Under the pieces are notes generated by a model that was given only the letters and a program-made list of their open reading frames with translations, did no database searches and was not told the origin of the DNA. From Aggregatimonas sangjinii (GTDB lineage Bacteria; Bacteroidota; Bacteroidia; Flavobacteriales; Flavobacteriaceae): 64,000 nucleotides of DNA. The stretch is taken from the NCBI RefSeq assembly GCF_005943945.1, contig NZ_CP040710.1, positions 1,127,001-1,191,000 on the forward strand, written 5' to 3'. Within the stretch, counting starts at the first letter, position 1; each line of letters starts with the position of its first letter. The translations under genes and the position numbers were made by a program. Positions 1,218 through 28,650 of the stretch are shown here, piece after piece.

Positions 1218-2054
1218 ATGAGCCGGAAAATCAATGAGCAGGATGTTATTGATACTTATGAACACCAAGAAGGTAGCACGAACCGTCAAAAATCGCAGGA
1301 GGAGATTCTGGTGGAACAGCTTTGTGAAGGCATGGAGGCCTATAAACAGCAGAACTCTAAAGTGTTTATAGGTTCAGTAGCCGCCGGTCTTGAAATCGGA
1401 TTCAGCTATCTATTGATCGTCGTACTCTACACCTTCTTAGAGGATAAATTTTCTGCCCATACCATACCTTATCTGGTGGCGTTTGCCTATCCTGTCGGAT
1501 TTATCATGGTAGTTTTAGGGCGGTCCATTCTCTTTACCGAGCAGACCTCATTGTTGGCACTACCCGTGCTGCATGGTAGACGTTCGGTACTACAGCTGTT
1601 GCGTTTGTGGGGGCTGGTCATCGCAGGAAACCTGATTGGCGGTTTTTTCATCGCCTTGATCATCTGTTGGGTGGGGTTTGCGACCGGGATTATTTCTCAA
1701 TACAGTATAGGGGAAATAGCGGGACATGTTACCGAGGCTGAACTCTATGTCATTTTCGGTAGTGCCGTGCTCGCTGGGTGGTTGATGGCATTGCTCTCGT
1801 GGCTGGTCACCTCGTCAAACGAGACTATTAGCCGCATTTTCGTTATCTATATGATCACCGCCATTGTAGGTTTTGCAGGTTTTCATCATAGCATTGTCGG
1901 AAACATTGAAGTATTGGCCGGTCTTTTGTTTACCGATGACATCCTGTTTTCGACCTATGTCGGGTTTCAGACAACCGCGCTTATCGGTAACGCCTTTGGA
2001 GGTGTAGTTTTTGTAGCCTTACTAAAATACCGTGCCTTTACCGCAAATTATTAA
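1218..2054 (+). CDS. Formate/nitrite transporter (FNT) family protein
   Basis: A 278-aa polytopic membrane protein. A hydrophilic N-terminal region of about 45 residues is followed by six hydrophobic segments. The first carries the FNT-type 'F..G..AGl.iG.sYl' pattern (FIGSVAAGLEIGFSY) and the third the 'LfteQT..l.lPvl' pattern seen in the YfdC-like branch of the family. FNT proteins are pentameric channels for small monovalent anions such as formate, nitrite or hydrosulfide; the long N-terminal extension and branch features do not fix the substrate. It converges on the giant sigma-54 regulator, with 26 bp between their stop codons and no clear terminator. Confidence 0.82.
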   Translation: MSRKINEQDVIDTYEHQEGSTNRQKSQEEILVEQLCEGMEAYKQQNSKVFIGSVAAGLEIGFSYLLIVVLYTFLEDKFSAHTIPYLVAFAYPVGFIMVVLGRSILFTEQTSLLALPVLHGRRSVLQLLRLWGLVIAGNLIGGFFIALIICWVGFATGIISQYSIGEIAGHVTEAELYVIFGSAVLAGWLMALLSWLVTSSNETISRIFVIYMITAIVGFAGFHHSIVGNIEVLAGLLFTDDILFSTYVGFQTTALIGNAFGGVVFVALLKYRAFTANY

Positions 2055-2080: not shown

Positions 2081-5000
2081 TCAACTTCTGGATATTCCGA
2101 GTTTACGCATTCTGGACTCTAGGGTAGAAGGCGCAACCCCCAACTGTCGTGCAGCACCATTCTTACCGCTGACCTTCCATTTTTTCTTTTCCAGAACCTC
2201 TAGCAGATAGTTGCGTTCTAAGAGATCTTTCTCCCTTTTTATGGCATCCATATCAAAGTCATCGGTCAATTTCAATGCCCTCGTATTGGTACCCTCCGAT
2301 GCCATCCATTCAAAATCGGCCACATTGGAATTTCCGGGATGAATCTCGATGATCTTGCCTTTTTGAGATATGATGGCCTGTTCGATGTTGTTCTGTAATT
2401 CCCTAACATTGCCCGGCCAGTCGTAGGCCTGAAACCGTTTTAACGTATTTGCGGTGAAACCCTTGAACGGCAGACCGTATTGTTCCGAAAATTGCCGTGC
2501 GAAAAAGTCGGCCAACAACAGCACATCTTCACCACGTGCGCGCAACGGAGGTACCTGAATGGGATACCCGTTCAGACGATAGAATAAATCGGATCGGAAT
2601 ATACCCGTGGTAATTTCTTCGTTCAAATTTCTGTTGGTCGCGGCGATGATCCGAATATCCAAGGGAATGGTCACATTGCTGCCCAGGCGTTCCACCTCAC
2701 GTTCTTGAATGACCCTGAGCAACTTGGTTTGCAATTCTAAAGGCATTTCCCCGATTTCATCTAGAAATATCGTTCCCTTATTGGCCAACTCGAATTTTCC
2801 TATTCGGTCTTTTACCGCGCCCGTAAAGGCACCGCGTTGATGTCCAAACAATTCTGATTCTACGATCTGCGACGGTATGGCCGCACAGTTCACCTTTACG
2901 AGCACCCTGTCTTTCCGGGTCGAATTTTCGTGAATGGCACGGGCGATCAGTTCCTTTCCGGTGCCGGTTTCACCTAAGATGAGCGCGGTAGCGTCTACGG
3001 CGGCTACTTCGGAAACCTGTGCGAACACGTCGCGCATCGCCTTGCTCTCGCCGATCATATGCTCAAAGTTGTAGGTTTCCTTGACCACGCTTTCCAGATA
3101 GGTTTTTTCCAATTGCAACTGCTCCGACATTTCTTTTATGGAGAAGGAAGAAAATAAGTTTTCCAAGGAAATTCTTAAGGTATTGCGAACACCTTCTAAA
3201 ATATTACAATGCCTAATGCTATAATGGTTCTTATCCTTGCTGAACATAAAAAAGTAAACTTCGGTATGCTTTTTCTTGAGATGCAATCTATGCGGCAATA
3301 CGGATTGTAGTCCCAATGCGTCCATATAGCCTTTGGTTGCTTTGGGTATATCCTTAAGTTGAATGACTTCATTCTCTTTTTTTGATAATTGAATCAACCC
3401 CTTTTGCGCCTTTGTGATTTCAGTTGTGGAAAGCTTTGTGATTTCTTCTATGTTTTTGAGGGATAGTTGACGCTTCTCAACAGGCGTGATCCACTCGTAT
3501 GTAAAATCATTGAGCCTGTCTTTTGTTACTTTGATTACCGTGGCAAAAGTGAAAGGGATCAAGGCCTTGTATTCTTGAAAAATATCATCCCATTTGTCAT
3601 TGGATTTTTGTTCTGTGGTCAGGATGTTGGATATTTTAAGTTCTAGATCCTGAATCGCGCTCTTCCAAAGGATTTCTTTTTTGGAAAGAATGTTGGCCAC
3701 GCAAATAGACACTTGCTCGGAAACCGACTTGTAATGTTTGATATGCTGTTCGTTAAAAACGCCTTCTTTCTTCAGTTTGAAGGCCATCATACCGATTTTC
3801 TTGCCTTGATTGACCAGAGGGCCTCCTAACAATTCCTTTACGCCGGCATTCACCATATCAATGTGGCGTGGATGCTCGGTGTTCTCCACCAGAAAATCCA
3901 TTGAGGTAATCACCGGGCCGTTATTGGCCAACCATTCCACAGACGATCCCTGATGTTTATATAAAGTTTGTTTTTCAACGGTCGCGCCCTTCCTATTTTG
4001 ATCCTCGACCTGATTTACAAATTTTTCGTTGATCAATTCATAGTGGTACGACTCGCTCTTGTCTAAAATCAACACACCTACCTGATCAAAAGGAATGATT
4101 TTCTTTACCACCGTATCAATGGCGTTATAGAGTTCTACGGCGTTGGTAGTTGCAGCCAAGGCCTCGGTAATTTCTAGAAGATTCTCACTATATTTCTTTT
4201 CTTCTTCCGTCTGTTGATTGGCGAGAATATTGGAAATAGCCACGGAAAGTTGCTCGGTAACATTCTGAAAAAGCGAAAACTGTTCTTTTTTAAAAAAATC
4301 TTTTTGCAAGGCATTGATACAGAACATCCCGAATACGGAATCACCAATTTTCAAGTTGGCGGCAAGGCAGTCTCGATACCCGCTATTAGGCATATCTACC
4401 AAGGTGAATTGATAGTAATCAGGGAAATCCCGTACCAATAGTTTAAAATCGAAGAGAACCGGACCATTTTCTTTTTCTATTTGAAGCATCATCCAATCAA
4501 TGAGAGAATCTTTATGTAATATTGATTCATTTCCACTTGCTAATAAAGCTGAATTAATTGGGGAAGAACTGATTTTGTCATTAAAACCAGCCATATCGTA
4601 ATGATATTTACCATCATCGGTCAATAAGAAAATGCCTACGTCAACGAAATTAAAAATGGGTTTTAGTTTGGTGGTCACAAAACTCAAAAAGTCGGGCAAG
4701 TTCCTGATTTTGGATACTGCGGAAGTGATTTCAAGTAAAGTGGCTTTTTCACGTTCGCGTTCTAGGATTTTTTCATTGGCGAGAATATTGGATACGGCTA
4801 TGGAAACCTGTTCAGCTATCGATTTAAAAAGTACCAAATGCTCTTCCTGGTAATAACCAGCTTGACTATGATTAAAACATAATAGACCTATGGATTCACC
4901 ACCGTGTACCAATGGACCTCCAATTACATTTTGCAGGCCACCTTCTAACATATATTGATGTTGCGGGTGCGGTGATTTTTTATCCAATTCTACAATATCT

Positions 5001-8000
5001 ATAGAAATAGGACCATTGTTCATAACCCATTCTACCGAACTTCCAGTATGTTTAAAACGAGTATGTTGTCCTAAATTAGTTTCAACGAGCTTTTGGGCAT
5101 CCGATTTTTGCAAATCGTCTGCCGTAATCAATTCGTAGTGGATATCTTCTTTTGCATTATAGATGAACAGACCAAGCTCGTCGTAGGGGAAAATTGGTTT
5201 GATATGGTCAAAAATAGTTCGGTATAAGCCAGAAGAATTCTTTACCTGCGCTACGGCTTCAGTAATTCTTAAAAGAGTATGGCTAAAGTTTTTTTCTTGC
5301 AAAAGGGCTTCATTGGCTAAAACGTTATTGACCGCCACAGCCAGTTGGTCTGCAATGGCTTGAAATAAGGGTAATTGGTTTTCTGAATAGGCATTCTCTT
5401 TGAAACTGTCAAAAGCCAAAGCCCCTATTATCGAATTGCCCACTTTTAGGGGTGTAAACATCATTTCTTTGAAACCCTGACTTTTCATAATGGGCATAAA
5501 GGCATTATCTGGAAATTTCTCTATTAAAGTGTCAATCGAACTTATTTCCGTGCTTTCGAGCATATAGGCTACGAGTGTATCTATATCCATATAGCCAGAT
5601 AAACCTTTGTTTGCCAGTTCTACATTACTATCGGTAAGGTTGTAATTATCGGTTACAGCTAAGTCTGCAAATTGATTCTTGTCCTCATTAAGTAGTACTA
5701 TACCGACGTCATCAATGGGAATCACTGGCTTTATTTTCTCGAAAATCACCCGGAATAATTCCTGCCTGTCTTGAATCGATGCTACGGCTTCGCTAATGGC
5801 GAGTAGGGTTTCCTTAAAGTTTTTTTCCTCTAAAAGTGCTTCTTTAGATAAAATATTGCTGGTGGCCACAGCGAACTGGTCTGCAATTGCCTGAAAGAAT
5901 TGTGGGTCTGTATTATTATATTCATTTTCATTCGTAGAATTTAATATGAAAACCCCTATAATTTCACCGCGATTTTTAAGCGGACCATATATCATATGCC
6001 TTAAACCCGTTTTAAGCATTGTCGCAATATGGGGATGCTTTACATTCTCAATAGGGCTGGTATACACCTTAGGGTCATTCAATACTTCTTGTACAAATGA
6101 TTCTTTGTTTGCAAATGGTCCTGTTCCTATTTTATTCCAGACTTGAATGCTGTGCATATCATTGGTAACTCCTTCATCAATGACCTCATAATGATGGTCG
6201 CCATCTATGATGAAAAGGCCGGGACATTCAAAAGGCACAATGGGCTGAACTTTCTCAAAAAGAATTTTAAAGAGCTCAGACCTATTTCGAATAGTGGTGA
6301 CCGCCTCGCTTATATTTAAAAGGGTCTCCTTAAAGTTTTTTTCTTCCAATAACGCCTCATTGGCCAAAACGTTTGCCACAGCGACCGCTAATTGGTCTGA
6401 CAAGGCTTGAAAAAGTGTGAAATCGCTTTCTGAATATTCATCTTCCTTGCGACTGTTAAAGCAAAGCACGCCAATTGTTTTACCGCCATATTTTAAAGCA
6501 CCGTAGATTTCTTGTTTCAAGCCCATTTTAAGCATACTCGCCTTATGCGGATGTACCATATCCTTTATTAATATGAGATGTGGGCCAGCGTCCTTGATAG
6601 AATGTTCAACAGGTGTGTTCTTGTTTTTAAATGGACCTCTGCCAGCGCTTTTCCATATATATAAAGTGGACTTTTCTTTAAGTATTTCCTCATCTAAAAT
6701 CTCATAATGTGAATCACCATCGATTATCATTAAACCTGGACTATCGGAAGGGAAAATAGGTGCAATAACCTCAAAGAAAACTTTGAAAAGTTCTCTCCAA
6801 TTTTGAATGGTGGCAATAGATTCGCTTATTCTTAATAGGGTTTCCTTAAAGTTTTTTTCCGCAATCAATTTTTCGGTACTCAGTATTTTATCGACCGCTG
6901 GCCCGACCTGGTCGGTCAATTGTTGCATCAAAGGTAATTGCGCATCGGTATAAATAGCCCTCTCGAGCGATACGAGTACGAGTACTCCTATAATCTCGTT
7001 TCCAGATTTTAAGGGTGCCGTAATGAATTGCTTTTGATTTTCGTTGGCAAGTATTTCGCGAAAAGCGAAATCTTTATGTGACAAAAACTCTTCAATCGTC
7101 CAAATGCGTAATGGTGTCTTTTGCATTCGTTTGGTCAACGAACAAAAGGGAATCCATTTGTCCATATTATGTTCGTACAAGGCGTTAGATACATTGGAAA
7201 GCTCGAGATACTCTTCACTTACGGTCAAATCGCGCCAATGGGTTTTTTCTTCATTGTAGACCACAACACCTAAATCATCGACTGTGATAATCGGTTTGAG
7301 GTAGTTTACTATGGTCGCCAACAGCTCTTTTCGGTCGAGAATGGTGGCCATAGCTTCGCTGATACCGAGAAGGGTTTCTTTAAATTGTTTTTCGCTGACT
7401 AGTGTCTGGTTATCTAGAATATTGCTTACTGCAACTGCAAGTTGGTCTGCAATGGCTTGAAAAAGCGGTAACTGACTTTGCGTAAAGAAACCGCGCTTTT
7501 TGGCATTGATACAGAAAAAGCCTAGCGTGTTTCCTGCGTACTTGAGTAGTACCTGCATACTATCGTGATAATTGGCCTCCACCAAATATTTACTTTGCTC
7601 GTATTGCGGAAACTGTTTGGCCATATCGGTCAAATCGATGATTATAGGGCCGTTTGCTTTGCGAAGCAAGGCTAGCTCCCAAGCCATATTGGAACCCTTT
7701 TCAATGGACAAGGGTTTGTTAACTTCAACATCAGCCAAGGCCTCTTTGGATTCTGGGGATAGTGCCAAAGCATTATATTTTAACGACCAATCTTCGAGTG
7801 CTGTTTTATCTTCGTTGAATACGAACAGACCCGTATCGTAAAAATTGAATATGGGCCGAATCTTGTCAAAAATTACTCTTAAGAGCTTATTGCCAGATTG
7901 TACGGTGGATATTACTTCGCTGATATTCAGCAAAGTTTCTTTAAAATTCTTTTCCTTGTCAAGGGATTCTTGAGCCAATATATTACTTAAGGCCACAGAG

Positions 8001-10093
8001 AATTGACTTCTGATACTATCAAATAATCGTAGTCTATAACCGTCAAGAATTTGCTCGGTCTTGAAATGGAAAAAGAGAATGCCTATGCTCACCTCTTGAT
8101 GTTTTAGCAATAGCGTAATACTGTGTTCTAGCCCGATATCCTTCATCAACAAAAGGCCAGGGTATTTGGGATATACTTTCAACCAGTCCGATAAAACAAA
8201 ATGCGCCACATCATCGCCCTCAAGTACTTTTTCTATGGGTGTACCTTTGGTATCGACCTGATTTTCTACCACTTCCTTATATAATGGATGGTCTGTGGTG
8301 CTTTTAGGCGACATCGTTAACGGGTGGTGATGTTTGTTTGTAGTAGTATCAACTAAACATAGTACGGCATCCGAAAAATTTACAATGGGTAGCAAATCGG
8401 TCATTATGGAATTGTACAGGTCCTCTCTGTTTCGAATACTGTTTACAGATTCGCTTATACCCAAAAGTGTCTGCTTAAAATTTTTCTCGTTCAATAATTG
8501 CTCATTAGCCAAAATATTACTAACCGCGACCGAAAGTTGGTCTGCGATATTAGGGTACAGTTTGTTTTTAGGATGATGTAGGTTCTGTGGTTCTTTAAAA
8601 TGAAAATTGATAAAGGCGATGAGCTCCCCTTGATTCTTTAGTTTTAATGAGGTGGTATGGTGCAAGTCTAAATCAGCCATTAAGTGAAGGCCTGGAAAAT
8701 CGGGATAATCCTGCAACCATTTAGATAGCTCGAAATAGTTGATGTCATCCCCATTCACTATCTGTTCGGCGGGCGACCTTTTGATGTCAAATTCAGTTTC
8801 CATAACGGCCGGGTACAACTTATTCTTTTGTGCAGGTTTAGACGCCATTGAGAGAATGTGCTTAAATGTCTGTCTATCGCTATCAATGGTAATTAGGGCG
8901 GCTTCATCAAATTGGATGATGGGTTGAATAAGATTCATTATAGTGTTGTACAGGTCATTCCTTTCCCTGATATTGGTCACAGCTTCGCTAATGCCGAGAA
9001 GGGTTTCTTTAAAGGTTTTTTCTGCTATAAGTTCATCCTTAACTATAAGATTATTTAATGCCAAAGCAATTAAATCTGCCAAACTTTGAAATAGTGGAAA
9101 ATCTTGTTCAAAATAGACGTTGGGTTCCAAAGAAATTAGATTGAATACACCGATGGGCTTACCGCTAATTATAAGTGGGGTACTGATTACCTGTTTTACA
9201 CCAGCCTCTTCTAATTCCTGAAAATGTGGGTGGTCTTTAATACGCTTAAGAAATTCTTGTCCGTCATATAACAGGGTGCCTTTTAGAGCATCAATAATAC
9301 TTGACTCTGGTTTCATATAGCCCTCAATGCTATTGCTTTTTAGGCTTATTGAGATATCTTCGTTGCCAACAAAGTCGACCATAAAATCTCTATGACGACC
9401 ATCGGGCAACACATGGAATAATCCTGAATCATCAAATGGAAAGAGCAGTTTCACTTTCTTATTGATAATGTCAAATAATTGCTTAAAATCGGAAACAGCA
9501 GCGGTTGCCTCACTTATACTTAAAAGATGTTGATTGATTGCATTTTGACGTAAGATTTCTTCCCTATCCAAAATATTAGAAAGCGTTACCGTTATCATAT
9601 CGGCTATTTTAGTAAAAAGGGGAATGTCTCTTTTACTGTAGGTGCTTTCTTTTTTTGACCATAACAAAAAGACGCCAAAGGTTTTAGAGTTTCTTATTAA
9701 AGGAATGCTTATAAATTGTTTTAATCCTTCACTATTAATATATTCGGTATGCGGATGTTTTGGATATTTCTTGAAAAATTCATCCACGGTCTCTGTGCGC
9801 AATTTTTCAGACGCAGCTTTCATTGACTTTTCGGGTGCTAACCATATATCTCCAAGATGTTGATTTATTGTTTTATTTGCTCCAAAGGATAACTCGGATG
9901 CAGAAGTTAAGTCTCGATGCCGTCCATCTTCGAGTACGTGAAAAAGGCCTACATCATCAAAGTCGATAACTTTGTTTACTTTTAAGAATATAGTTTGGAG
10001 CAATTCTGGTATGGATTGTACCGAGGTGATATCATTTAATATGGAATACAGGATTTCATTTTGGTCCTGATTCTTTTCTTTTTTCTTTTCCAT
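2081..10093 (-). CDS. Giant multi-GAF sigma-54-dependent activator
   Basis: A 2670-aa bacterial enhancer-binding protein. The N-terminal 2300 residues are tandem GAF modules of about 170-185 aa, each opened by a coiled linker of the type '[15 protein letters not shown]'. Linkers fall near residues 188, 360, 538, 717, 903, 1081, 1252, 1424, 1602, 1781, 1968 and 2148, which gives twelve clear GAF domains and a thirteenth divergent one before the ATPase. The AAA+ domain has Walker A GETGTGKE (2374-2381), the sigma-54 contact loop GAFTGA (2421-2426), Walker B FLDEIG and an arginine-finger region. A Fis-type helix-turn-helix ends the protein (about 2625-2668). GAF domains bind small ligands or cofactors, and sigma-54 activators normally carry one or two. 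No membrane segment is seen. Its promoter region holds paired TCACGA boxes. The target genes are unknown. Confidence 0.93.
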
Positions 10094-10124
10094 AGTTTAA
10101 ACCTTTTCTTAAAAATAATCCTAT

Positions 10125-10175
10125 TTCACGAAAATATCGTGAATGTCACGATTTTTTTTCGTTATATTTTCGTGA
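10125..10175. promoter_or_regulatory. Cluster of TCACGA/TCGTGA operator-like boxes
   Basis: Within 51 bp there are four 6-bp half sites: TCACGA at 10126-10131, TCGTGA at 10137-10142, TCACGA at 10146-10151 and TCGTGA at 10170-10175. The first pair forms a perfect 7-bp inverted repeat (TTCACGA, 5-nt spacer, TCGTGAA). The cluster starts 32 bp upstream of the giant sigma-54 activator and lies about 125 bp upstream of the divergent AraC-type gene. The dyad fits a site for a dimeric Fis-type helix-turn-helix, so autoregulation or control of the AraC gene is a reasonable inference. I did not find a convincing -24/-12 promoter beside it. Confidence 0.5.
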
Positions 10176-10297
10176 TTTAATTATGGCATGCAAGGTGTCT
10201 TTGCTTAGACGTCAATGAATTAGGGTATTGTCAGCGTATTTCGTTCAGAACCATTCTTGGTATCGTTTTAGGATAGTAAGCAGTAAAGAACGCTGTT

Positions 10298-11251
10298 ATG
10301 ACGACACTACTTAAAAACATTCCTAGCCTCGATATCGATCGCTTTGTTCAAAATTTGATGAATGCCCCCAACAGGCATACTATTACTCATCGAAACCAGA
10401 AGATGCAATTTCATATTTGCCGCCTTTCGGAAATTGATGATGCCTCTCCGTTAGACAAACCGCACATCTATGATTTCTTTACCATCTATTTCGTGGAAGC
10501 TGGTTCCCTTGCGAAAATCAATCAACTGGAATCGTTACAATTGAACGCCAAAGAGGTTTTCTTTTCAAAACCGGGCGAAATCAAGACCTGGCAGAAAATG
10601 AAGGGATTAAAGGGATATCTTCTTTCCTTTACCATTGACTACCTCTTGATGTTGATCAATGATAAGAACATCATCAACAGTTTCGATTATTTGATGCCCG
10701 ATTCGCAACGAAAATTTGCATTGGACGAAGCAAACTTTGCGTACTATCAAAATGTCTTCAATGAACTTGGTAAAGAGTATGCCGAGCCAAAACTACAGTC
10801 TACCGAACTTATTCGGTTCTGGATATTCGTGTTGCTGATTAAGACCAATCGGTTGCACCAGGAGCAACATCAACTGGTCAAACCGAAAAAACTTACCCGC
10901 TCCTCAGACGTTATCTGTGCCAAGTTTCTAAAACTTTTGGACGAGACGTTTACTGACTTGGCAAAAGGTACCATTATGAAACCCCCAAGGATAAAAGAGT
11001 TCGCCGAACTTTTGAATGTCAACCCTACCTATTTGGGGGAGTGCGTCAGAAAATCGAGCGGAAAATCGGCAAAGTCTATTATCAATAGAAAGACCCTCTT
11101 GTTGGCCAAATGCCAATTGTTGCATACCCAGAATAACATTTCCGAAATCGCGTACCAATTGGGTTTTGAAAGCCCCGGCTATTTTATTCGGTTTTTCAAA
11201 AAATTCGAGGAGCTGACACCCTTAGAGTTTCGAAAATCAATGAGTGCCTAA
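10298..11251 (+). CDS. AraC-family transcriptional regulator
   Basis: A 317-aa protein with an N-terminal cupin-like sensory region (about residues 20-180) and a C-terminal double helix-turn-helix. The second HTH shows the AraC signature 'iseIAyqlGFeSpgYFiRfFKk...lTPleFRks' at about 280-315. The first HTH lies near 245-268 (FAELLNVNPTYLGE). Proteins of this build bind a small ligand and activate adjacent or divergent catabolic genes. It is transcribed away from the giant activator and shares its promoter region. A small ORF follows 29 bp downstream on the same strand. The ligand cannot be read from the sequence. Confidence 0.88.
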   Translation: MTTLLKNIPSLDIDRFVQNLMNAPNRHTITHRNQKMQFHICRLSEIDDASPLDKPHIYDFFTIYFVEAGSLAKINQLESLQLNAKEVFFSKPGEIKTWQKMKGLKGYLLSFTIDYLLMLINDKNIINSFDYLMPDSQRKFALDEANFAYYQNVFNELGKEYAEPKLQSTELIRFWIFVLLIKTNRLHQEQHQLVKPKKLTRSSDVICAKFLKLLDETFTDLAKGTIMKPPRIKEFAELLNVNPTYLGECVRKSSGKSAKSIINRKTLLLAKCQLLHTQNNISEIAYQLGFESPGYFIRFFKKFEELTPLEFRKSMSA

Positions 11252-16323: not shown

Positions 16324-17163
16324 TTAAAAGAAATCCAATAGTTGACGATTCAGTAGTTTAGGCTGTTCATCCGCAATCCAATGGCCACATTCCGCTACGA
16401 CTGAACCCGTTACATCATTTGCTAGCTGTTCCCAACCAGGAACCATGAATTCCCCGGCACCCATTTCACCCCCCAATGCCAGCACCGGCATGTCGAGTTT
16501 CACCTTTGCCGTTACCTTAAAATGCTCTGTATCATCGAAGACCGCAGCGAAGTGTGCAAAGCCAGCTCGTAATGCTCCGGGCTTTTGAAGATTACGTACG
16601 TAATTCTCAAAATCAGCTTGGGACACTGCATCGGGGTTATAACTCCAGTGCCAGAAATACCACGCCAGTAATTCACGTTCTTTTCCGGCGATAAACTGTA
16701 TAGCAACGTCAGGTACCGTAAAAAAGGCCAACTGCCAAGCTTGCCAGTTTCGTACTGGTTGAAGCCCATGCTCATAACCAAAGCCAGGCGGAACATATTC
16801 GATGAAACACGCCTTCTTGACTCGGTCCGAAAATTGTGAAGCAAAGGAGTACGCTACGCCACCGCCATGGTCATACCCGACTAGGTTGATTTTATCTATT
16901 TCAAGGGCATTCAGAAATTTTTCCATATCCCGTGCTAGATTTTCTTTCTCATAACCTCCATCCGTTATAGTGGTACCTCCCATACCCCTTAAATCCGGGG
17001 CAATGACTCTGAAGTTTTTAGAAAGTTCAGGCATCATCTTTCGCCACATATGGGAATGCTGAGGAAATCCGTGAATCAATAGCAGTACATCACCCGTACC
17101 GCATTCTAAGTAAGATTGATCTAAGCTGCCAATTCTTTTCGTGTGATATTTTATCTCGCTCAT
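16324..17163 (-). CDS. Alpha/beta hydrolase, epoxide-hydrolase/dehalogenase type
   Basis: A 279-aa cytoplasmic alpha/beta hydrolase. The oxyanion strand reads LLLIHGFPQHSHMWR, followed by 'viAPDLRGMGgT'. The nucleophile elbow is GYDHGG, giving an Asp nucleophile as in soluble epoxide hydrolases and haloalkane/haloacetate dehalogenases rather than Ser esterases. The catalytic His is in 'ECGHWIADEQP'. The cap region is Trp-rich (WYFWHWSYNP), typical for fluoroacetate-dehalogenase relatives. It is 42 bp downstream of the isochorismatase-like gene at 17206-17889. A related but distinct enzyme lies at 27445-28305. Confidence 0.87.
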   Translation of the reverse strand: MSEIKYHTKRIGSLDQSYLECGTGDVLLLIHGFPQHSHMWRKMMPELSKNFRVIAPDLRGMGGTTITDGGYEKENLARDMEKFLNALEIDKINLVGYDHGGGVAYSFASQFSDRVKKACFIEYVPPGFGYEHGLQPVRNWQAWQLAFFTVPDVAIQFIAGKERELLAWYFWHWSYNPDAVSQADFENYVRNLQKPGALRAGFAHFAAVFDDTEHFKVTAKVKLDMPVLALGGEMGAGEFMVPGWEQLANDVTGSVVAECGHWIADEQPKLLNRQLLDFF

Positions 17164-17205
17164 TAGTATATTATTAGGGTACTGTAATTTCTTAACATCG
17201 AATGC

Positions 17206-17889
17206 TCAAAGATGAGCTTGTAGTGGGGGTGTCCCGATTTGTTCTTTCATCATATCGGCATTTTTGGCGACCCCTAAATAGTTTGACATCGCCACGGAAT
17301 ATTGTCCCATATGCTCGCTTAGCAAATTTGCGATATGCATGCCGTTTATCTGTGTATTATTGGCCAATTCGGCCAATACGGCCACCCAAGTCGTCACAAC
17401 GACGCCGGCCATTGCCAAGCGCTTCATGGTGACTTCCGTAACCAACGGATTCCAATCGGCGGAGGCATCGATTACGGCATAGACTTCGTAGCCCTCTTGA
17501 ACTGCCGCAATAGCCGGAAACGCTACACAGACCTCCGTTGCCAGTCCAGATATTACCAATTTGGTACGGCCTGTGGATTTCACTGCTCGTTTTGAGGTCT
17601 CATCGTTCCAGAAGTTGACATAAGGTCTATCGATGACACTTTCCCCACCAAAAAGTTCTATTAATTCCGGTAGCGTGGGGCCATTGGGGCCTTGTGGCCA
17701 ACTGGTCCCTAAGATGGTCGGAATATCGAAGGCTTTAGCGGTTTTTGCGTGACCCAGAATATTGTTCTTCAATAGTGCGGGATCGATCGACGTCAAAAAC
17801 GTGGATAGCCCCACCTGATGATCGATCATAACAAAGCAGCAATTGTCCGGAGTGAGTTCTGTGCGAAATGGATTTTTTAATTCATTCAT
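17206..17889 (-). CDS. Isochorismatase-family cysteine hydrolase
   Basis: A 227-aa protein with the family's two signature strands: 'CCFVMIDHQVGL' with the catalytic Asp near residue 23, and 'LVISGLATEVCVAFPA' with the nucleophilic Cys, followed by 'GYEVYAVIDASADWNPLV'. Members hydrolyse amides or enol ethers. The 'DASaDwNp...e.tm.Rla.aGv..ttw.avlaEL' tail fits the YcaC-like branch. There is no signal peptide, so it is cytoplasmic, unlike the relatives at 14601 and 18309. It is the first gene of a minus-strand run that continues with the alpha/beta hydrolase and SnoaL-like genes. Confidence 0.88.
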   Translation of the reverse strand: MNELKNPFRTELTPDNCCFVMIDHQVGLSTFLTSIDPALLKNNILGHAKTAKAFDIPTILGTSWPQGPNGPTLPELIELFGGESVIDRPYVNFWNDETSKRAVKSTGRTKLVISGLATEVCVAFPAIAAVQEGYEVYAVIDASADWNPLVTEVTMKRLAMAGVVVTTWVAVLAELANNTQINGMHIANLLSEHMGQYSVAMSNYLGVAKNADMMKEQIGTPPLQAHL

Positions 17890-18308
17890 AGCCTTTATTA
17901 CTTATTATGCTCTAGTTCAACTTATTTCTTGAGGTAAAGTTCCATATAAAAGGAGGTTGTGGATATTACTAATTTCCAGTTATTATGGTACTTTTTAATG
18001 CGTTTAAGGTGTTGGTCTAGCGAACATTTCAAAATAGGTAAGGAATCATTTAGATTACCATGAAAATGTCGGTAGCACCTTGATGTCGAATAATTTTTGA
18101 TAGTCAAGGCAATAATACTCTTATACCCTAGCGAAGGAAACCTTATCGTTGATCGGGGGATGCATCGACCGTTTATCAACTTCAATTCAGTGCACCTTAA
18201 TTTCTACCATCATTGCTTGCAAAAGTGAATTTCACAAGAGAAGGCATGGACTAATTTTGGATTTAGAAACTCAGGATACTACTATCCTAAAAACAAAAAT
18301 TCGACATT
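17890..18308. other. Divergent promoter region
   Basis: This 419-bp gap separates two divergent isochorismatase-like genes. It holds a short perfect dyad, GTGAA-T-TTCAC (18225-18235), about 75 bp before the ATG of the plus-strand gene, a possible operator. A minus-strand frame of 87 codons at 17922-18185 has a composition unlike a protein and is not called. Confidence 0.4.
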
Positions 18309-19052
18309 ATGAAAAATCTAATTACACTACTCGCAATCTTTATGGCATCATCGGCCATGGCACAATGGAAACAGTATAATCCGAATAAGAATAACGATCC
18401 TGCGAACGCTTCAAAGGAATTGATCAACCCGGCAAACCATACCTTAATGCTTATTGACCACGAGAGTCAGATGGCCTTCGCGGTAGAGTCTAATCCGATA
18501 GACGAAATACGAAATAATGTAGGGCTGATTTCCGCTATTTCCCAGCTTTATGAAATTCCGACCGTAATAACGACGGTTGCTGAAAAATCGTTCAGCGGAC
18601 CTGTTTTTCCTGAAGTTCGGGAATTCTTTCCCGATGAGAGCGGTTATATCGACCGTACTACGATGAATTCATGGGAGGATACACGGGTGGTCAAGGCCGT
18701 AGGCGCTTTTAAAAAACCCAAACTTGTTTTGGCCGGTCTTTGGACAGAGGTCTGTATTCTTTCCGCCGCACTTTCGGCCCTGGAAGACGGGTATGACGTC
18801 TATGTCATTACGGATGCTTGCGGTGGTGTGTCAAAAGAGGCGCACGATATGTCTATTGCCCGAATGATGCAAGCAGGTATCAAGCCCATGACGGCCATGC
18901 AGTATGGTCTGGAAATACACCGGGACTGGGAGCGTTCAGACACTTATGTTCAAATGAACGATATAATGAAAAAATGGGGAGGTGCCTACGGATTGGGAAT
19001 CGATTACAAGAAAACTTTGGATAAGTGGGAAAAGGAACATTCCGAAAAATAA
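18309..19052 (+). CDS. Exported isochorismatase-family hydrolase
   Basis: A 247-aa protein with a clear Sec signal peptide (MKNLITLLAIFMASSAMAQ, cleavage after AMA). The mature part has 'HTLMLIDHESQMAF' with the catalytic Asp and 'LVLAGLWTEVCILSAALSAL' with the nucleophilic Cys, then 'GYDVYVITDACGG'. The C-terminal 'mtamQYGLEIHRDWER' segment fits the hydrolase branch found next to pirin and similar genes. Export to the periplasm sets it apart from the cytoplasmic relative at 17206. It is followed directly by a strong terminator. Confidence 0.88.
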   Translation: MKNLITLLAIFMASSAMAQWKQYNPNKNNDPANASKELINPANHTLMLIDHESQMAFAVESNPIDEIRNNVGLISAISQLYEIPTVITTVAEKSFSGPVFPEVREFFPDESGYIDRTTMNSWEDTRVVKAVGAFKKPKLVLAGLWTEVCILSAALSALEDGYDVYVITDACGGVSKEAHDMSIARMMQAGIKPMTAMQYGLEIHRDWERSDTYVQMNDIMKKWGGAYGLGIDYKKTLDKWEKEHSEK

Positions 19053-19078
19053 TAAAGTTTTAGGTTGGTTAGTTGGTA

Positions 19079-19121
19079 AGGTTTGTCCTGACTATCTTAG
19101 GTCAGGGCAAATCTTTTGTTC
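19079..19121 (+). terminator. Rho-independent terminator after the exported isochorismatase-like gene
   Basis: A 14-bp stem (19079-19092 with 19101-19114), closed by an 8-nt loop and followed by a T-rich run. The two non-Watson-Crick positions are G.U wobbles only in the plus-strand RNA, which supports this orientation. The stem starts 26 bp after the stop codon. Confidence 0.75.
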
Positions 19122-19167
19122 TTTAAGGGTCCAAGAAAGGCACTAAACGATATTTGAACTAAAAAAT

Positions 19168-19880
19168 ATGAAAACAACACTTTATAAAGCCGAATCAAGA
19201 GGCCATGGCAATCATGGATGGCTCAAGAGTTATCACTCTTTTAGCTTTGCCAATTATTATGATCCGAAACGAATGGGTTTTGGTGTTCTTCAGGTTTTGA
19301 ACGATGATGAAGTAGCGCCAGGCATGGGTTTCGGTACCCATGGGCATAGCAATATGGAAATCATTTCGATACCTTTGGAAGGTGATTTAGAGCATAAAGA
19401 CGATATGGGCAATACTACGGTCATTCGTAGCGGGGATATTCAGGTCATGAGTGCCGGTACTGGCGTTAAGCACAGTGAATATAATCATAGTAAAGACAAT
19501 ACGGTAAAATTTCTACAGATATGGATAGTGCCAAAAAAGGCCAATGTCGAACCTCGATATGACCAAATATCATTAGATGAAGAAGACCTAAGAAATCAGC
19601 TTTGCCAAATAGTATCCCCTAATTCAGATGATGACGGTATTTGATCCATCAGGATGCTTGGTTTCATCTCGGGTACTTCGATAAGTCTACCCGACTTGAA
19701 TATATATTGAAGAAGAAATCCAATGGCGTTTATGCTTTTTTGTTGGAAGGAACTTGTTCCATAAATAATGAGAAGTTGGGAAAACGGGATGCCCTTTCGC
19801 TAGAAGATGTCACCACATTCAGTCTGGACATGGAAGCTTATTCAAGGATACTCCTGTTAGAGGTGCCAATGTCAAATTAG
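19168..19880 (+). pseudogene. Pirin family protein, split by a one-base frameshift
   Basis: Residues 1-158 form a pirin N-terminal cupin: 'NHGWLkSyHSFSFAnYYdpkrMGFGvLqVlNdD', then the metal site 'THGHSNMEI' and 'HSEYNHS'. The frame ends in TGA at 19642-19644 just where pirins continue with a W-I-H-Q-D-A-W motif. The next frame (19641-19880) resumes with IHQDAWFHLG and the C-terminal cupin. Adding one G near 19643 restores I-W-I-H-Q-D and one 237-aa protein. Pirins are iron-binding cupins with regulatory or quercetinase activity. This copy either lost function or carries a sequencing error. Confidence 0.88.
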
Positions 19881-20000
19881 TACTTGTTAGAACATCACAA
19901 ATTCCATTAGAACAAAGAACGGAGCGAATAAGATTTGCTTCAGTGCAATCCGTTATAACCTTTATTGAAGCCGTTGATTATGGTAATTCGGAAGTATCGT

Positions 20001-21368
20001 TTAATCAATCCAGACCGATTTTGTATTTACAAATTCCCGAATGCCATAACCCGAAAGTTCCCTCCCGTAGCCACTGTTTTTAATGCCCCCGAACGGTAGT
20101 CTTGGATCTGACACGACCAGCTTATTCACGAAGCTACTGCCAGCCTCCAATTGCAGGGCAACTTTTTCACCTCTTTCAGTATTTCCGGTGATGACACCCG
20201 AGCCCAATCCGTATTGGGAATTATTCGCTAGTTCAATAGCATGCGCTTCGTTCTTCGCTTTGATTACGGAGGCTACCGGTCCAAAAAGTTCAACATCAAA
20301 AGCCTCCATTCCCGGTTTCAAGTCGGCAAGAATGGTCGCCGGATAGTAAGCGCCTTTACCTTCAGGAATGTTTCCGCCCAAAACCAACCGACCTCCTTGA
20401 GAGATGGTTTTCTGTACTTGCTCATGGATTTCATCGCGTAAATCGTGCCGGGCCATCGGCCCGTAATAGGTATCCTCATCCGTGGGTTTGCCCATCTTTG
20501 CCTTCTTCATCTTTTCCGTAAATCGGTGCAAAAAGTCATCGTAGATAGCATCCAGTACTATAAAACGCTTGGCCGCGATACAGGTTTGACCGTTATTCTG
20601 TAGTCTACCATAGGTCGCCAAGTCGGTGGCCTTCTCCAAATCCGCATCGTCTAGAATGATATAGGCATCACTTCCACCGAGCTCCATAACGGTCTTTTTC
20701 AGATTTTGTCCTGCTATAGAGGCTACTGAACGCCCTGCGGGGTCACTGCCGGTCAATGTGACGGCAACGATGTTCTCATCCTCGATTATTTTTTTCACTT
20801 GTTTTGATCCGATGTTCAGGTTGGTGAATATCCCTTTTGGGAATCCCGCTTGCGAAAAAGCTTTCTCCAAAGCCTCCGCACAGCCTTGAACATTGGAGGC
20901 ATGCTTTAAAACTCCGGTATTTCCTGCCATTATAGCCGGCACCGCAAAACGAATCACTTGATAGAAAGGGAAGTTCCAGGGCATGACGGCAAGAATCACA
21001 CCTATTGGCTGAAACGTCACATAGCTTTTCGCCGCCTCGGTTTCCACTTTTTCATTCGCCAGTAGCTTCTTAGTGTTATCAGCGTAATAGCGGCATATCA
21101 AGGCACATTTCTCCAATTCCTTTCGAGCCTGACCAATGGTCTTGCCCATTTCTTGGGTGGCCAATTTTGCATATTCTTCCTTCTTTTCTTCCATCACTTC
21201 CGCCAACTTGTACATCATCGCCGCCCGTTCCTCGTAACTATTTTCTTTCCAAAGCTTAAAGGCACTATTGGCTTGCTGTACTTTTTCAAGAGCGGTTTCA
21301 TCGGAAATTCGGGCATATTGCGCTACTTTTTCACCCGTAGCGGGGTCTATAATTTCAGCATAATCCAT
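20001..21368 (-). CDS. NAD(P)-dependent succinate-semialdehyde-type aldehyde dehydrogenase
   Basis: About 455 aa, aldehyde dehydrogenase superfamily. It has 'AVMPWNFPFYQVIRFA' (residues 129-144), 'vTLTGS' for cofactor binding, the general base Glu in MELGG (about residue 229) and the nucleophilic Cys in NNGQTC (about residue 263), then 'PFGGIKNSGYGRELS' near the end. The short N-terminus and 'GKTIGQAR.ELEKCA' match the succinate-semialdehyde dehydrogenase group. The ATG at 21366-21368 leaves 2 nt after the stop of the ThDP enzyme, so the two are translationally coupled. Together they could turn a 2-oxo acid into the acid one carbon shorter (2-oxoglutarate to succinate). Substrate is inferred. 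Confidence 0.88.
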   Translation of the reverse strand: MDYAEIIDPATGEKVAQYARISDETALEKVQQANSAFKLWKENSYEERAAMMYKLAEVMEEKKEEYAKLATQEMGKTIGQARKELEKCALICRYYADNTKKLLANEKVETEAAKSYVTFQPIGVILAVMPWNFPFYQVIRFAVPAIMAGNTGVLKHASNVQGCAEALEKAFSQAGFPKGIFTNLNIGSKQVKKIIEDENIVAVTLTGSDPAGRSVASIAGQNLKKTVMELGGSDAYIILDDADLEKATDLATYGRLQNNGQTCIAAKRFIVLDAIYDDFLHRFTEKMKKAKMGKPTDEDTYYGPMARHDLRDEIHEQVQKTISQGGRLVLGGNIPEGKGAYYPATILADLKPGMEAFDVELFGPVASVIKAKNEAHAIELANNSQYGLGSGVITGNTERGEKVALQLEAGSSFVNKLVVSDPRLPFGGIKNSGYGRELSGYGIREFVNTKSVWID

Positions 21369-21370
21369 TA

Positions 21371-23032
21371 TCAATCTTTCTTTAGGTTCTGCGAGTATTC
21401 TTTAATAAGAACATTCAATATTTTATGGTTCAAGGAGTAATCTACGGCGAGGTCTATCAAGTGAACCCCGGTTGCGTGTAGACAGCTTTTTAAGGTCTTT
21501 TCAAAATCCTCAACAGAATTTGGTCTATGGCCTCTGGCGCCAAAACTTTCCGCATACTTTACGAAATCTGGATTGCCGTAGTCCAATCCGTATTTCGGGA
21601 AACCTTCGCCTTCTTGCTTCCATTGGATCATTCCATAGGCGTTATCATTCAATATAATTACAACCAAATCAAGTTGAAGGCGAACGGCGGTTTCCATTTC
21701 CTGCGAATTCATCATAAAACCGCCATCACCGTTGACTGAGATAACTTTTTTATCGGGATTCAGTTCTTTCGCCATTAGGGCGGATGCCAAACCTGCACCC
21801 ATAGTAGCCAGGGCATTATCAAGAATAAGGCTATTCTGCTTGTAGGCGGGATAGTTGCGTGCAAACCATAACTTATAAATTCCATTATCCAAGGTCACGA
21901 TACCATCTTCCGGAAGCATATCACGTATGATTTTGACCAAACGTTGTGGTAAGATTGGAAACCGGTCGTCCTTTTCATACTTGGTAAGACGTTTTGAGAC
22001 CTTGTCTCGAATAGCGAGGAAAAAATCGGTATCCCAACTTTTTGAATCGGCAACCAAGGCCTTTGTCAATTGGTGTACACTGTCCGCAATATCACCGATG
22101 ACATTGAATTGGGGGAAGTAGACTTCGTCGATTTCGGCCGCAAAGAAGTTGATATGAATCACTTTTCGTTCGTCTTCGGGATTCATAAAAAACGGCGGCT
22201 TTTCAATCGTGTCATGGCCCACATTGATAATCAGGTCCGCCTCGTCAATCGCTTCATGTAAGAAATCATAGTCCGATAATGCAGCTGTTCCTAAGTATAA
22301 GGGATGTCTTTCGTCTATGATACCCTTACCCATTTGGGTGTTGAAAAAGGGAATTCCCAATCTTTCCACGAATTCCGTAAGTGCCGTACTAGCTCTCTTC
22401 CTATTGGCTCCGGCGCCAATCAACAACAATGGCTTTTTGGCGGCAAGTATCATCTTAGCAGCCTCTCGAATCGTTTCGGGTCCTGCATTCGGAATTCTAT
22501 AGTTCACCACCTTGAACAACTTTGGGTCGGATACTTCTTCTTGTGCAATATCCTCCGGGAGTTCTATATGCACTGCACCGGGTCGTTCTTCGGTCGACAA
22601 CCTGAAGGCTTCTCGAATGATTGACGGAATGTGTTCCGCATGGGTTACTTGCTTCGTAAACTTTGTTAGTGGCTGCATCATCTCCACGACATCGATGATC
22701 TGAAATTTACCCTGCTTGCTTTTTTTGATAGGTTTTTGCCCCGTAATCATGACCAAGGGCATCGCCCCCAATTGTGCATAAGCGGCCGGTGTCACAAGAT
22801 TAGTCGCACCTGGCCCCAAAGTGGCCAAACAGACACCAGGTTTTCCGGTTAACCTTCCATACGTCGCGGCCATAAAACCGGCACCTTGCTCGTGTCGGGT
22901 AAGTACGAATTTGATTTTATCGGATTTTCTGAGCGACTCCAAAAAATCGAGATTTTCCTCCCCGGGTAGTCCGAAAATATATTCAACTCCCTCATTTTCC
23001 AGAGCACTAATACATAAGTCCGATGCTTTCAT
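21371..23032 (-). CDS. Acetolactate-synthase-like ThDP enzyme, candidate 2-oxoglutarate decarboxylase
   Basis: A 553-aa three-domain thiamine-diphosphate enzyme. The PYR domain has 'YIFGLPGEENLDFLESL' and the catalytic Glu48 in TRHEQG; the middle domain lies near 190-325; the PP domain has 'NGDGGFMMNSQEME' and 'NDNAYGM' for Mg2+/ThDP (about 445-485). It aligns with large subunits of acetolactate synthase, but no regulatory small subunit is nearby. The 'EnEGVEYIFGLPGEENL' start is, as I recall it, shared with the cyanobacterial ALS-like protein shown to be a 2-oxoglutarate decarboxylase, which is also encoded next to a succinate-semialdehyde dehydrogenase. A PhyH dioxygenase precedes it. Acetolactate synthase or a 2-hydroxyacyl-CoA lyase remain possible. 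Confidence 0.85.
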   Translation of the reverse strand: MKASDLCISALENEGVEYIFGLPGEENLDFLESLRKSDKIKFVLTRHEQGAGFMAATYGRLTGKPGVCLATLGPGATNLVTPAAYAQLGAMPLVMITGQKPIKKSKQGKFQIIDVVEMMQPLTKFTKQVTHAEHIPSIIREAFRLSTEERPGAVHIELPEDIAQEEVSDPKLFKVVNYRIPNAGPETIREAAKMILAAKKPLLLIGAGANRKRASTALTEFVERLGIPFFNTQMGKGIIDERHPLYLGTAALSDYDFLHEAIDEADLIINVGHDTIEKPPFFMNPEDERKVIHINFFAAEIDEVYFPQFNVIGDIADSVHQLTKALVADSKSWDTDFFLAIRDKVSKRLTKYEKDDRFPILPQRLVKIIRDMLPEDGIVTLDNGIYKLWFARNYPAYKQNSLILDNALATMGAGLASALMAKELNPDKKVISVNGDGGFMMNSQEMETAVRLQLDLVVIILNDNAYGMIQWKQEGEGFPKYGLDYGNPDFVKYAESFGARGHRPNSVEDFEKTLKSCLHATGVHLIDLAVDYSLNHKILNVLIKEYSQNLKKD

Positions 23033-23130
23033 TTAAATTTCTTTAATACTAATTTCTAATTCACCCTTACTTGTCAACCGACCTTCTATCCATGCTTTGA
23101 AAAGGATTTTTCGGACATTCTATTTGGATT

Positions 23131-24015
23131 TTAATTTGGCTCAAAAAGTAGTGGGAAGAATTTTCCCTGCATTTTGTCACCCTTCGGAACCGGAGGTACG
23201 CCCGCCAACAACTCATCATTCGTATTGCTGACCGTACCATCGGCAAAAACATTTAGTACAAAGGCCCTGCGGCTCCTATTGGATTTGTTCTCGTAAGAAC
23301 CATGAACCATCAAGGGATGATGAAAGGTTGCGTACCCTTTTTTCAACGCTATGGCCACGGGATTCTTAAATTGTTCCTTTTGTTCTTCGTTCAAGTAATT
23401 TATCAGGCCGTTCATATCACCAGCCAATGGCGGGGCATCTAATAGTCCCCATTTATGGCTTTTGGGAATATAATGCAAACATCCGTTTTCCGTATTTGCG
23501 TCATCCAACCCTGTCCAACAAGTGAGGTGTTGCATGGCGATGGTTCTTGTCCAGTACGAATAATCTTGATGCCAGGCTACTACACCACCGTGTTCTGCCG
23601 GTTTGCAAAATAACTGGTCGTGCCAAAAGCGAACGGGCTTGTTTTCCAATAGCTGATGGGCCGCCATGACAAAGGCCGGATTCCATAGCACATCGTGAAA
23701 CCCTTCGGTAATACGCCAATGACCCAAGGAATGGAATAGGACCGAATTCGGGTCTTCGGATTCATTACTATGAAATTCATAGAACAGTTCGTGTGCGGGA
23801 TGTTCGGGATCCAGTATTTCCCTCAATTCCTTTCGCAATTTTTCGACTTGTTCATTACTTAAGAGCTTTATGCCCGATACATAGCCCTCTTCATGAAAAT
23901 GATTCACCTGTTCGTCGGTCAATCGGTATTGCTGCCATTCTTCCTTTGAATTTGGCCAATCAAAAATGTTCGAGATCAAATGATGTTTCTCCGCTAAATC
24001 CTTTATTTTTTGCAT
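23131..24015 (-). CDS. Phytanoyl-CoA dioxygenase (PhyH) family protein
   Basis: About 294 aa, a non-haem Fe(II)/2-oxoglutarate dioxygenase. The metal triad is visible as H-x-D in 'VAWHQDYSYW' (about residues 149 and 151) and the distal His in 'HPLMVHGSYENKS' (about 238); the 2-oxoglutarate-binding Arg follows in 'NRSRRAF'. The segment 'CLHYIPKSHKWGLL' is typical of PhyH. I use the ATG at 24013-24015; a GTG 30 bp upstream is also in frame. It is 98 bp upstream of the ThDP enzyme and may share its operon. The hydroxylated substrate is unknown. Confidence 0.87.
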   Translation of the reverse strand: MQKIKDLAEKHHLISNIFDWPNSKEEWQQYRLTDEQVNHFHEEGYVSGIKLLSNEQVEKLRKELREILDPEHPAHELFYEFHSNESEDPNSVLFHSLGHWRITEGFHDVLWNPAFVMAAHQLLENKPVRFWHDQLFCKPAEHGGVVAWHQDYSYWTRTIAMQHLTCWTGLDDANTENGCLHYIPKSHKWGLLDAPPLAGDMNGLINYLNEEQKEQFKNPVAIALKKGYATFHHPLMVHGSYENKSNRSRRAFVLNVFADGTVSNTNDELLAGVPPVPKGDKMQGKFFPLLFEPN

Positions 24016-24219
24016 ATTTAAATTGACTTGTTTCAGACCTGTCACATCATATTCCAGGACGTTTCGTGTTGATGTATCTTTTTGGCCTTTTTCGCTTTAC
24101 TCATTCTGTAGGCTCAAAATATACATTACTTAAATATAGCGAAGATTCTACTAGAAACGATTGTCTTTTCTGCATATTAGTGTAGCATCCTTTTGAAACC
24201 GAATATTTGCAGACCCTTA

Positions 24220-25404: not shown

Positions 25405-25405
25405 G

Positions 25406-25960: not shown

Positions 25961-26007
25961 ATGTTATCTATTTGAATATATAATGCGTTGTAATGTGATA
26001 CTATCAT

Positions 26008-27411: not shown

Positions 27412-27444
27412 AAGTCTTGATGGGCAGATTACTTTTTAAATAAT

Positions 27445-28305: not shown

Positions 28306-28397
28306 CTTTGCTATTTTTCAGTTTGTTATTTATCGTCCAATATTGGAATAAAGTATGCACCAATCGAATTCCATTAGGCCAGCCGGTTGAAGTGCCT

Positions 28398-28640: not shown

Positions 28641-28650
28641 CTACGGCTAT

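Follow-up and report, generated by a model that had tools for sequence, protein, structure and literature searches.

The question raised by this locus is how a single transcriptional activator came to carry thirteen sensory modules in tandem, and what such an array could do. The window, i.e. the whole 64,000-nucleotide stretch of DNA analysed, contains on its minus strand an uninterrupted frame starting with ATG and coding for 2670 aa (Table 1). From the N- to the C-terminus, the translation is composed of thirteen GAF-type modules, an AAA+ domain with a GAFTGA loop and a candidate Fis-type HTH. Pfam analysis of the whole protein revealed Sigma54_activat at aa 2346-2512 (E 5e-71; PF00158, 238 bits for a cut-off of 20.2) and also AAA_lid_14. 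The GAFTGA loop lies inside a 13-residue stretch and is presented as essential for, or defining, enhancer-binding proteins in PMC3162934 and PMC12316311. The HTH is a candidate, the HTH_8 match being under its 22-bit cut-off; among six array relatives, L147, L149 and L156 pass this cut-off, L148 (20.1 bits) is under it, and L045 and L158 are unlisted. The rpoN gene is present in the genome (PF04552, 172.7 bits, frame of 491 aa). The sigma-54 domain, the GAFTGA loop and rpoN are in agreement with the first-pass annotation, which had called the gene a sigma-54 activator; judged from its sequence, the protein is a cytoplasmic sigma-54 enhancer-binding protein (bEBP) of the FhlA/NorR layout.

Table 1. 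Position of the features in the window; M1 to M13 are the GAF-type modules, numbered from the N-terminus.
Feature	Position	Strand	Basis or remark
Sigma-54 activator with 13 GAF-type modules, 2670 aa	2081..10093	-	translation and Pfam
Candidate Fis-type HTH	2099..2221	-	aa 2625-2665; HTH_8 18.1 bits, under cut-off
AAA+ sigma-54 interaction domain and lid, with GAFTGA	2339..3058	-	aa 2346-2585
M13, divergent, common to four orthologues	3140..3682	-	tree, leave-one-out profile, model
M10-M12	3683..5311	-	orthologue counterparts at 47-59% identity
M9	5312..5842	-	54% to G003 module 2; 49% to single GAF of G380 receiver-GAF-AAA+ activator
M7 and M8, neighbours, 48-49% identical	5843..6874	-	modelled as two GAF folds
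M6	6875..7408	-	groups with M9, G003 module 2 and receiver-GAF activator
M5	7409..7969	-	module alignment/tree
M3 and M4, 45% alike	7970..9037	-	group with G009/G004b/G005/G027 array modules
M2, cap type	9038..9562	-	module tree
M1, N-terminal cap	9563..10093	-	clusters with the initial modules of three orthologues
19-bp palindrome TTCACGA-N5-TCGTGAA, candidate binding site	10125..10143		only exact copy in genome
Degenerate second copy, one half-site only, 33 bp on	10158..10176		read by position; absent from palindrome-scan output
Divergent AraC-type regulator	10298..11251	+	adjoins array in four orthologues

Thirteen linker positions were found, at aa 16, 190, 365, 543, 721, 908, 1086, 1258, 1430, 1607, 1786, 1972 and 2150; a shared motif placed eleven of them, and patterns written by eye placed the first and the last. 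Their spacing (172-187 aa, mean 177.8) reproduces the value of about 178 residues given earlier. Over the whole protein, GAF_2 (E 1.6e-88), GAF (E 7.7e-80) and GAF_3 (E 1.5e-51) of Pfam each matched 10 stretches. When the modules were searched one by one, GAF_2 and GAF each recognised 10 of the 13 at E <= 0.01, and GAF_3 8 of the 13; the outcome in which most modules would escape GAF profiles did not occur. Leave-one-out profiles were also built from the array's own modules, M13 being in no training set. M1-M12 were recovered with E values from 1.4e-35 to 7e-55 whereas M13 gave 1.9e-7 (27.6 bits, for 13.3 in the best of 200 shuffles), and the description as twelve clear GAF modules plus one divergent is therefore correct. 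By sequence, the nearest solved structure is 3k2n, the GAF domain of a sigma-54 regulator (E 8.1e-17). By eye, the module bodies differ in their HYE/HPH and FPG stretches.

Structure prediction of M7-M8 as a monomer (pLDDT 87.6, pTM 0.68) revealed two GAF folds with one 44-residue helix (149-192) between them, and the best Foldseek matches of this model include the tandem-GAF proteins PDE2A and PDE5A and a cyanobacterial adenylyl cyclase. In the monomer model of M13 with the AAA+ domain, whose pTM is only 0.46, a 45-residue helix (156-200) connects the two, and helices are present at the C-terminal end, in the HTH region. The helix/strand order of M13 is much as in M7, the GAF likeness of its fold being judged by element order only; the Foldseek list for this second model was filled by AAA+ proteins, including the sigma-54 activators FleQ, FlrC and NtrC1. 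The helical linker of M7-M8 is consistent with the signalling rod put forward by the first-pass annotation. Inter-GAF helices are set apart from S-helices in PMC1592074.

Homologues were collected from overlapping samples of 397, 395, 395, 397 and 325 genomes, with 4 to 10 candidates scored per genome. None of the other matches listed in the sampled genomes is as long as 2670 aa, and no second protein with this length and module number was among them. GAF arrays of 5-8 modules do exist, as do PAS arrays reaching 2186 aa, and longer arrays may occur elsewhere. Five other very long homologues (2186, 1932, 1751, 1628 and 1366 aa), taken as a possible sign of common 13-GAF proteins, were all PAS arrays on scanning. 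In nine chosen relatives, 5-8 GAF modules each were obtained by a relaxed, iterated count, a stricter first count being lower for some (G380 7, G001 4, G027 4). The statement that such activators normally carry one or two sensory domains fails for these closest relatives. The Dyadobacter array (L045) has 6 modules, L121 is a shorter array of the same type with three modules in the part examined, and a Spirosoma plasmid relative has a CDS of 2061 bp.

At one locus beside a divergent AraC gene, four orthologues were found with 5 (G001), 6 (G004), 8 (G380) and 13 (window) modules, in agreement with the earlier view that module number can change. The first module, the last module and the AAA+/HTH part are common to the four, and the AraC gene is the only neighbour, among those read, that lies beside the array in all four loci. 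YceI and isochorismatase assignments in L147-L149 were made by eye. As the closest relatives carry 5-8 modules at the same place, the window protein is an extreme, changeable version of a known switch type.

The intergenic region shared by the orthologues holds paired 19-bp palindromes, of which the second is degenerate in the window. As read from the sequence, this pair, which the array gene and the divergent AraC gene have in common, is likely a binding site. It was not seen upstream of six other array genes (G003, G009, G004b, G005, G027 and Dyadobacter). Genome-wide enrichment is not clear (18 places with <= 2 mismatches, for 13 with the reversed control) and, with only a single exact site, a regulon defined from the palindrome was rejected. 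Sigma-54 promoter matches showed no excess in the 64-kb window; a hand-weighted scan gave 40 window hits, run without a control, and was set aside. A stretch before the AraC gene, TTGGTATCGTTTT, is present in the window and in L148 and is an unproven promoter lead.

Module trees were midpoint-rooted, with long branches behind the grouping of the last modules. The cluster of M9, M6, G003 module 2 and the receiver-GAF activator was recovered with a support of 99/98 in the tree from which five G004b modules, near-duplicates of G009 modules, were omitted; the clade holding M3/M4 reached 97/91 in one tree and 99/95 in the tree without these five modules. The middle of the array is a mosaic, M3/M4 grouping with another array subfamily and M6/M9 with a receiver-GAF activator. 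Simple tandem multiplication as the whole story was rejected, since some modules group with other genes. The module set would rather have been rebuilt over evolution between fixed ends: duplication would have given M7/M8 and M3/M4, and exchange with other activator genes probably gave M3/M4 and M6/M9, in a direction that we infer. Alternatively, M3/M4 or M6/M9 could belong to old classes of module that the orthologues have lost, with no exchange.

Taken together, we consider it fairly probable that the gene encodes an FhlA/NorR-like sigma-54 activator in which the sensory part expanded to 13 GAF-type modules, forming a dimeric signalling rod that controls the AAA+ domain, with a module set rebuilt by duplication and exchange. 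Modules of two or more subunits would lie paired next to each other, with helices running unbroken along the array, giving the long rod. Binding of a ligand or a partner at some modules would alter helix packing, and M13 and the 45-residue helix would relay this change to the AAA+ domain. The AAA+ domain would then assemble and remodel sigma-54 RNA polymerase at promoters with an HTH-bound enhancer. Several modules probably bind different ligands, and others may only be spacers. A bolder form of this reading is tentative: one activator would read up to a dozen different small molecules via a helical rod whose ends stay the same, and the lineage would swap sensor modules in and out from other activator genes, each species having its own inputs for the same output.

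The amino-acid identity among M1-M12 averages 43% in the linker columns and 22% in the bodies. The linkers had been called near-identical; this stands for a 14-residue core, the only nearly constant part, found in most junctions, and is overstated for whole linkers. Diverged bodies joined by retained helices would be expected if the helix outweighed the pockets, i.e. if the array was mostly spacer, with one or two sensing modules and the other GAF folds inert, serving to extend the rod or to restrain the AAA+ domain, and a module number of 5-13 at one locus points the same way. However, all bodies are still recognisable in a single intact frame, and the likeness of M10-M12 to their orthologue counterparts exceeds what drifting spacers should retain; such a mostly inert array is rather doubtful. 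It seems improbable that the array is a docking scaffold, the AAA+ domain being controlled by protein partners instead of small ligands. Some GAF proteins act through protein contacts, and a regular series of thirteen diverged bodies would suit this role. On the other hand, no neighbour read other than the AraC gene is kept in all four orthologous loci, and the nearest named relatives answer to small molecules, NO for NorR and formate for FhlA, according to PMC4987338.

At the DNA level, M1-M12 are 53% identical in the linkers and 41% in the bodies. The longest exact direct repeat within the gene is 25 bp, and likeness between modules is 44-59% for the six pairs measured, below the high identity between units of a recently expanded tandem repeat. 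Fourfold-degenerate sites agree at 0.33 in the linkers and 0.28 in the bodies, for 0.28 expected; the highest of the six pairs is M3/M4 (11/22). Synonymous sites are near saturation and the likeness of the linkers is thus mainly protein-level conservation. Maintenance of this likeness by gene conversion or by a recent duplication in tandem is disfavoured by the fourfold sites, although the linkers are slightly above expectation and M3/M4 is the highest pair. The proposal that repeated DNA could let module number change by recombination is not supported as a present process. A recent tandem-repeat expansion still changing in length within the species is most improbable: repeated protein modules, numbers differing between species and the M3/M4 agreement would fit it, but the fourfold sites as a whole, near background, the short direct repeat, the low DNA likeness and modules spread over different clades shared with other genes speak against it.

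The reading retained here, an FhlA/NorR-like activator with a long rod, bears on how long multi-sensor proteins pass or combine signals along a rod. At a single locus, the modules joined to a closely related output domain number 5, 6, 8 or 13 and have counterparts that can be identified, and number and order could thus be compared directly with signalling behaviour. The findings also point to exchange of modules between sensor genes in these bacteria.

Among known systems, the formate-metabolism activators FhlA and HyfR have the same order of GAF, AAA+ and Fis-type HTH, the last being a candidate in the window protein, with about 44% identity over AAA+/HTH. FhlA carries two GAF domains. Its model NF011958 is the best NCBIfam match (491.2 bits, under the family cut-off of 830) and differs by its length, 692 positions for the 2670 aa of the window protein. 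The second-best match over AAA+/HTH, NF003451 (NorR; 390.5 bits, cut-off 476), corresponds to a protein with a single GAF, a non-haem iron NO sensor, instead of 13 modules; NO on this GAF lifts repression of the AAA+ domain, as reported in PMC4987338. The arrays of G380 (8), G004 (6), G001 (5) and Dyadobacter L045 (6) share the module family and the C-terminal part, three of these four being at the same AraC-flanked locus; they differ by their 5-8 modules and by the set of modules inside the array. In the same bacterial family, sigma-54 activators with PAS arrays, reaching 2186 aa, likewise have an extended sensory region preceding a related AAA+ domain but are built of PAS repeats with a few GAF domains, and in four of the five scanned a receiver domain is present at the N-terminus as well. 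The cyanobacteriochrome PtxD is not known to be an AAA+ activator. According to PMC5812497, it has seven GAF domains, and it resembles the window protein as a long GAF array with modules tuned differently, whereas it differs as a seven-module bilin photoreceptor for phototaxis.

The uninterrupted frame of the array gene encodes 2670 residues, and the first-pass reading of its product as a sigma-54 activator with about 13 GAF domains was borne out by profile searches, in which the modules were recovered and a Sigma54_activat domain was found. In Pfam scans of the whole protein, GAF_2, GAF and GAF_3 each matched 10 stretches and the HTH_8 match was weak. When modules were scanned singly at E <= 0.01, GAF_2 and GAF were each detected in 10 of the 13. 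With profiles built without the tested module, all 13 were recovered: M1 to M12 (numbered from the N-terminus) gave E values of 1.4e-35 to 7e-55, and M13 one of 1.9e-7 (27.6 bits, the best of 200 shuffles reaching 13.3). The 13 copies of the linker, the predicted helical joint between modules, lie 172-187 residues apart; eleven were positioned from a common motif, the first and last by eye. Against its own genome, which also carries rpoN, the module profile gave 13 matches at E <= 0.001, all of them within the array gene.

Coordinates of the array gene and associated features
Feature	Location	Remarks
Array gene ORF	window 2081-10093	reverse strand
Sigma54_activat domain	array protein residues 2346-2512	lid also found; Pfam
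Palindrome TTCACGA-N5-TCGTGAA	window 10125-10143	within 10094-10297, between array and AraC genes
Second palindrome	window 10158-10176	degenerate, single half retained
Formate/nitrite transporter gene	window 1218-2054	between array gene and YceI; not at that position in L147 and L149
Isochorismatase-type and alpha/beta hydrolase-like genes, aldehyde dehydrogenase, others	window 16324-29277	named by eye
Receiver-GAF-AAA+ activator beside G380 array	L149:14641-16617	possible relative of M9 donor

A structure of M7-M8 was predicted from an alignment of 11 pairs of the window and 5 pairs from the Dyadobacter locus L045 (mean pLDDT 87.6). In this model a single helix (residues 149-192) spans the end of the first GAF and the start of the second. 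Among the 50 best Foldseek matches were tandem GAF proteins (PDE2A, PDE5A and 1ykd, a cyanobacterial adenylyl cyclase), numerous phytochromes and 3k2n, the GAF domain of a Chlorobium tepidum sigma-54 regulator, which was also the best PDB match by sequence. In the M13-AAA+-HTH model (pLDDT 80.5, pTM 0.46), M13 shows a helix and strand order much as in M7 and a helix (156-200) runs toward the AAA+ domain; sigma-54 activator ATPases filled its Foldseek list. Since inter-GAF helices, which have been distinguished from S-helices, can be parallel or antiparallel (PMC1592074), a parallel rod is an arrangement that the array may adopt.

Across M1-M12 the mean amino-acid identity was 43% in linker columns and 22% in the bodies. 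Fourfold sites, counted where the first two bases agree, were identical at 0.33 (135/411) in linkers and 0.28 (163/589) in bodies; composition alone would predict 0.28. Over six module pairs, DNA likeness was 44-59% and fourfold agreement ranged from 0/18 (M1/M2) to 11/22 (M3/M4); the longest exact direct repeat in the gene is 25 bp. The repeats thus appear to be mostly old, and linker likeness seems to be kept mainly via selection on the protein.

Orthologous array genes were found in L147 (genome G004, array G004a), L148 (G001) and L149 (G380), with C-terminal identities to the window protein of 70%, 66% and 66%. At all four loci the array gene is divergent from the same AraC-type gene, and the arrays count 13 modules in the window, 6 in L147, 5 in L148 and 8 in L149. 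YceI-like genes (named by eye) lie downstream in L147 and L149, their place being taken by alpha/beta hydrolase genes in L148. L147 and L148 also have, close to the array, an isochorismatase-like gene very similar to that of the window.

In maximum-likelihood trees built from 63 and 62 modules, a single clade holds the last module of each of the four orthologues and of the G005 and G027 arrays (100/99). The first modules of the four also cluster (100/95 and 100/97 in the two trees), with M2 adjoining. M12 groups with the fifth module of G004a and the fourth of G001 (100/94; 100/100), and M11 with the fourth of G004a (99/95; 99/94). M10 is nearest by identity to G380_4 (49%), G001_2 (49%) and G004a_2 (47%), while M7 and M8 are mutually nearest (49%). 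The clade that contains M3 and M4 (97/91; 99/95) also holds modules of the G009, G005 and G027 arrays. M9 and M6 cluster with G003_2 and the single GAF of the receiver-GAF-AAA+ activator adjoining the G380 array (99/98), to which M9 is 49% identical. Shared ends and a mosaic middle point to construction of the middle by duplication and exchange among activator genes. Module loss from ancient arrays could also have left the same mosaic. For evolutionary reshuffling of array modules, these sequence relationships provide good evidence.

In each of the three orthologues there are two 19-bp palindromes, some of which have a mismatch at one position of the arms, and the distance from start to start is 33 bp (G004a -58/-91, G001 -44/-77, G380 -73/-106); the pair was absent upstream of six other array genes inspected. 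In G380 the palindromes read TTCCCA...TGGGAA, one with an altered arm, and the HTH stretch of the array protein is RPTTLEYRM, compared with APSTLESRM for both the window and G004a, and APTTLESRM for G001. Because palindrome and array HTH have both changed in G380 and the AraC HTH is nearly constant across the loci, this one event hints that the candidate site is bound by the array protein rather than by AraC. The exact window palindrome occurs once in the 4.72-Mb genome, and a genome-wide scan at <=2 mismatches gave 18 places versus 13 for the reversed control, so that no wider regulon is indicated. Possible targets of the array protein are its own gene and the AraC gene.

Homologues were searched with the C-terminal 389 residues of the array protein. 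In the family sample 95 of 397 genomes gave a match at E <= 1e-85, and among the matches listed the 2671-codon frame of the window was the longest, followed by 2205, 1945, 1808, 1758, 1752 and 1634 codons. The phylum sample gave matches in 131 of 395 genomes and, besides the window's, no frame above 1230 codons among those listed. The long frames of 2205, 1945, 1758, 1634 and 1369 codons proved in domain scans to be PAS arrays. These sigma-54 activators (L151, L152, L153, L154 and L160) come from the window's bacterial family and reach 2186 residues; all but one of the five begin with a receiver domain at the N-terminus. The 1808-codon frame (G380) is a GAF array; in the 1752-codon frame the module profile found no match.

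Modules were counted in nine relatives that match this profile: by a relaxed count, eight in G380, six in G004a and in L045, and five each in G001, G003, G005, G009, G004b (the second array of G004) and G027. A stricter count gave seven in G380 and four in G001 and G027. High-scoring modules were present, own genome included, in 11/395 phylum (E <= 1e-24), 6/397 family (E <= 1e-26) and 5/325 class genomes (E <= 1e-15). One genome, of Dyadobacter psychrotolerans (that of L045; G803, contig C6), has module matches in four frames, of 1450, 1427, 1277 and 917 codons, lying within ~80 kb; the 1450-codon frame was confirmed as a sigma-54 activator, the other three being matches to the GAF type. On these matches and counts, GAF arrays are a sparse yet genuine group, and 13 modules is the highest count obtained.

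No 13-GAF activator was found among the titles and abstract openings listed from the open-licence literature, two of the lists covering 20 of 1,660 and 20 of 43 papers, and we do not claim its absence from print. A large survey found a GAF domain in ~10% of sigma-54 activators and, in several activators, PAS or GAF alongside a further sensor domain, a pairing interpreted as dual activation or as integration of signals (PMC3162934). In the literature passages met, the highest GAF count was the seven domains of PtxD (PMC5812497). On the simplest reading, signals from the many modules would be passed along the helices by the same logic as in known GAF activators. The array protein is the longest GAF-array sigma-54 activator found in the sampled genomes; it represents a known kind of protein in an extreme form.
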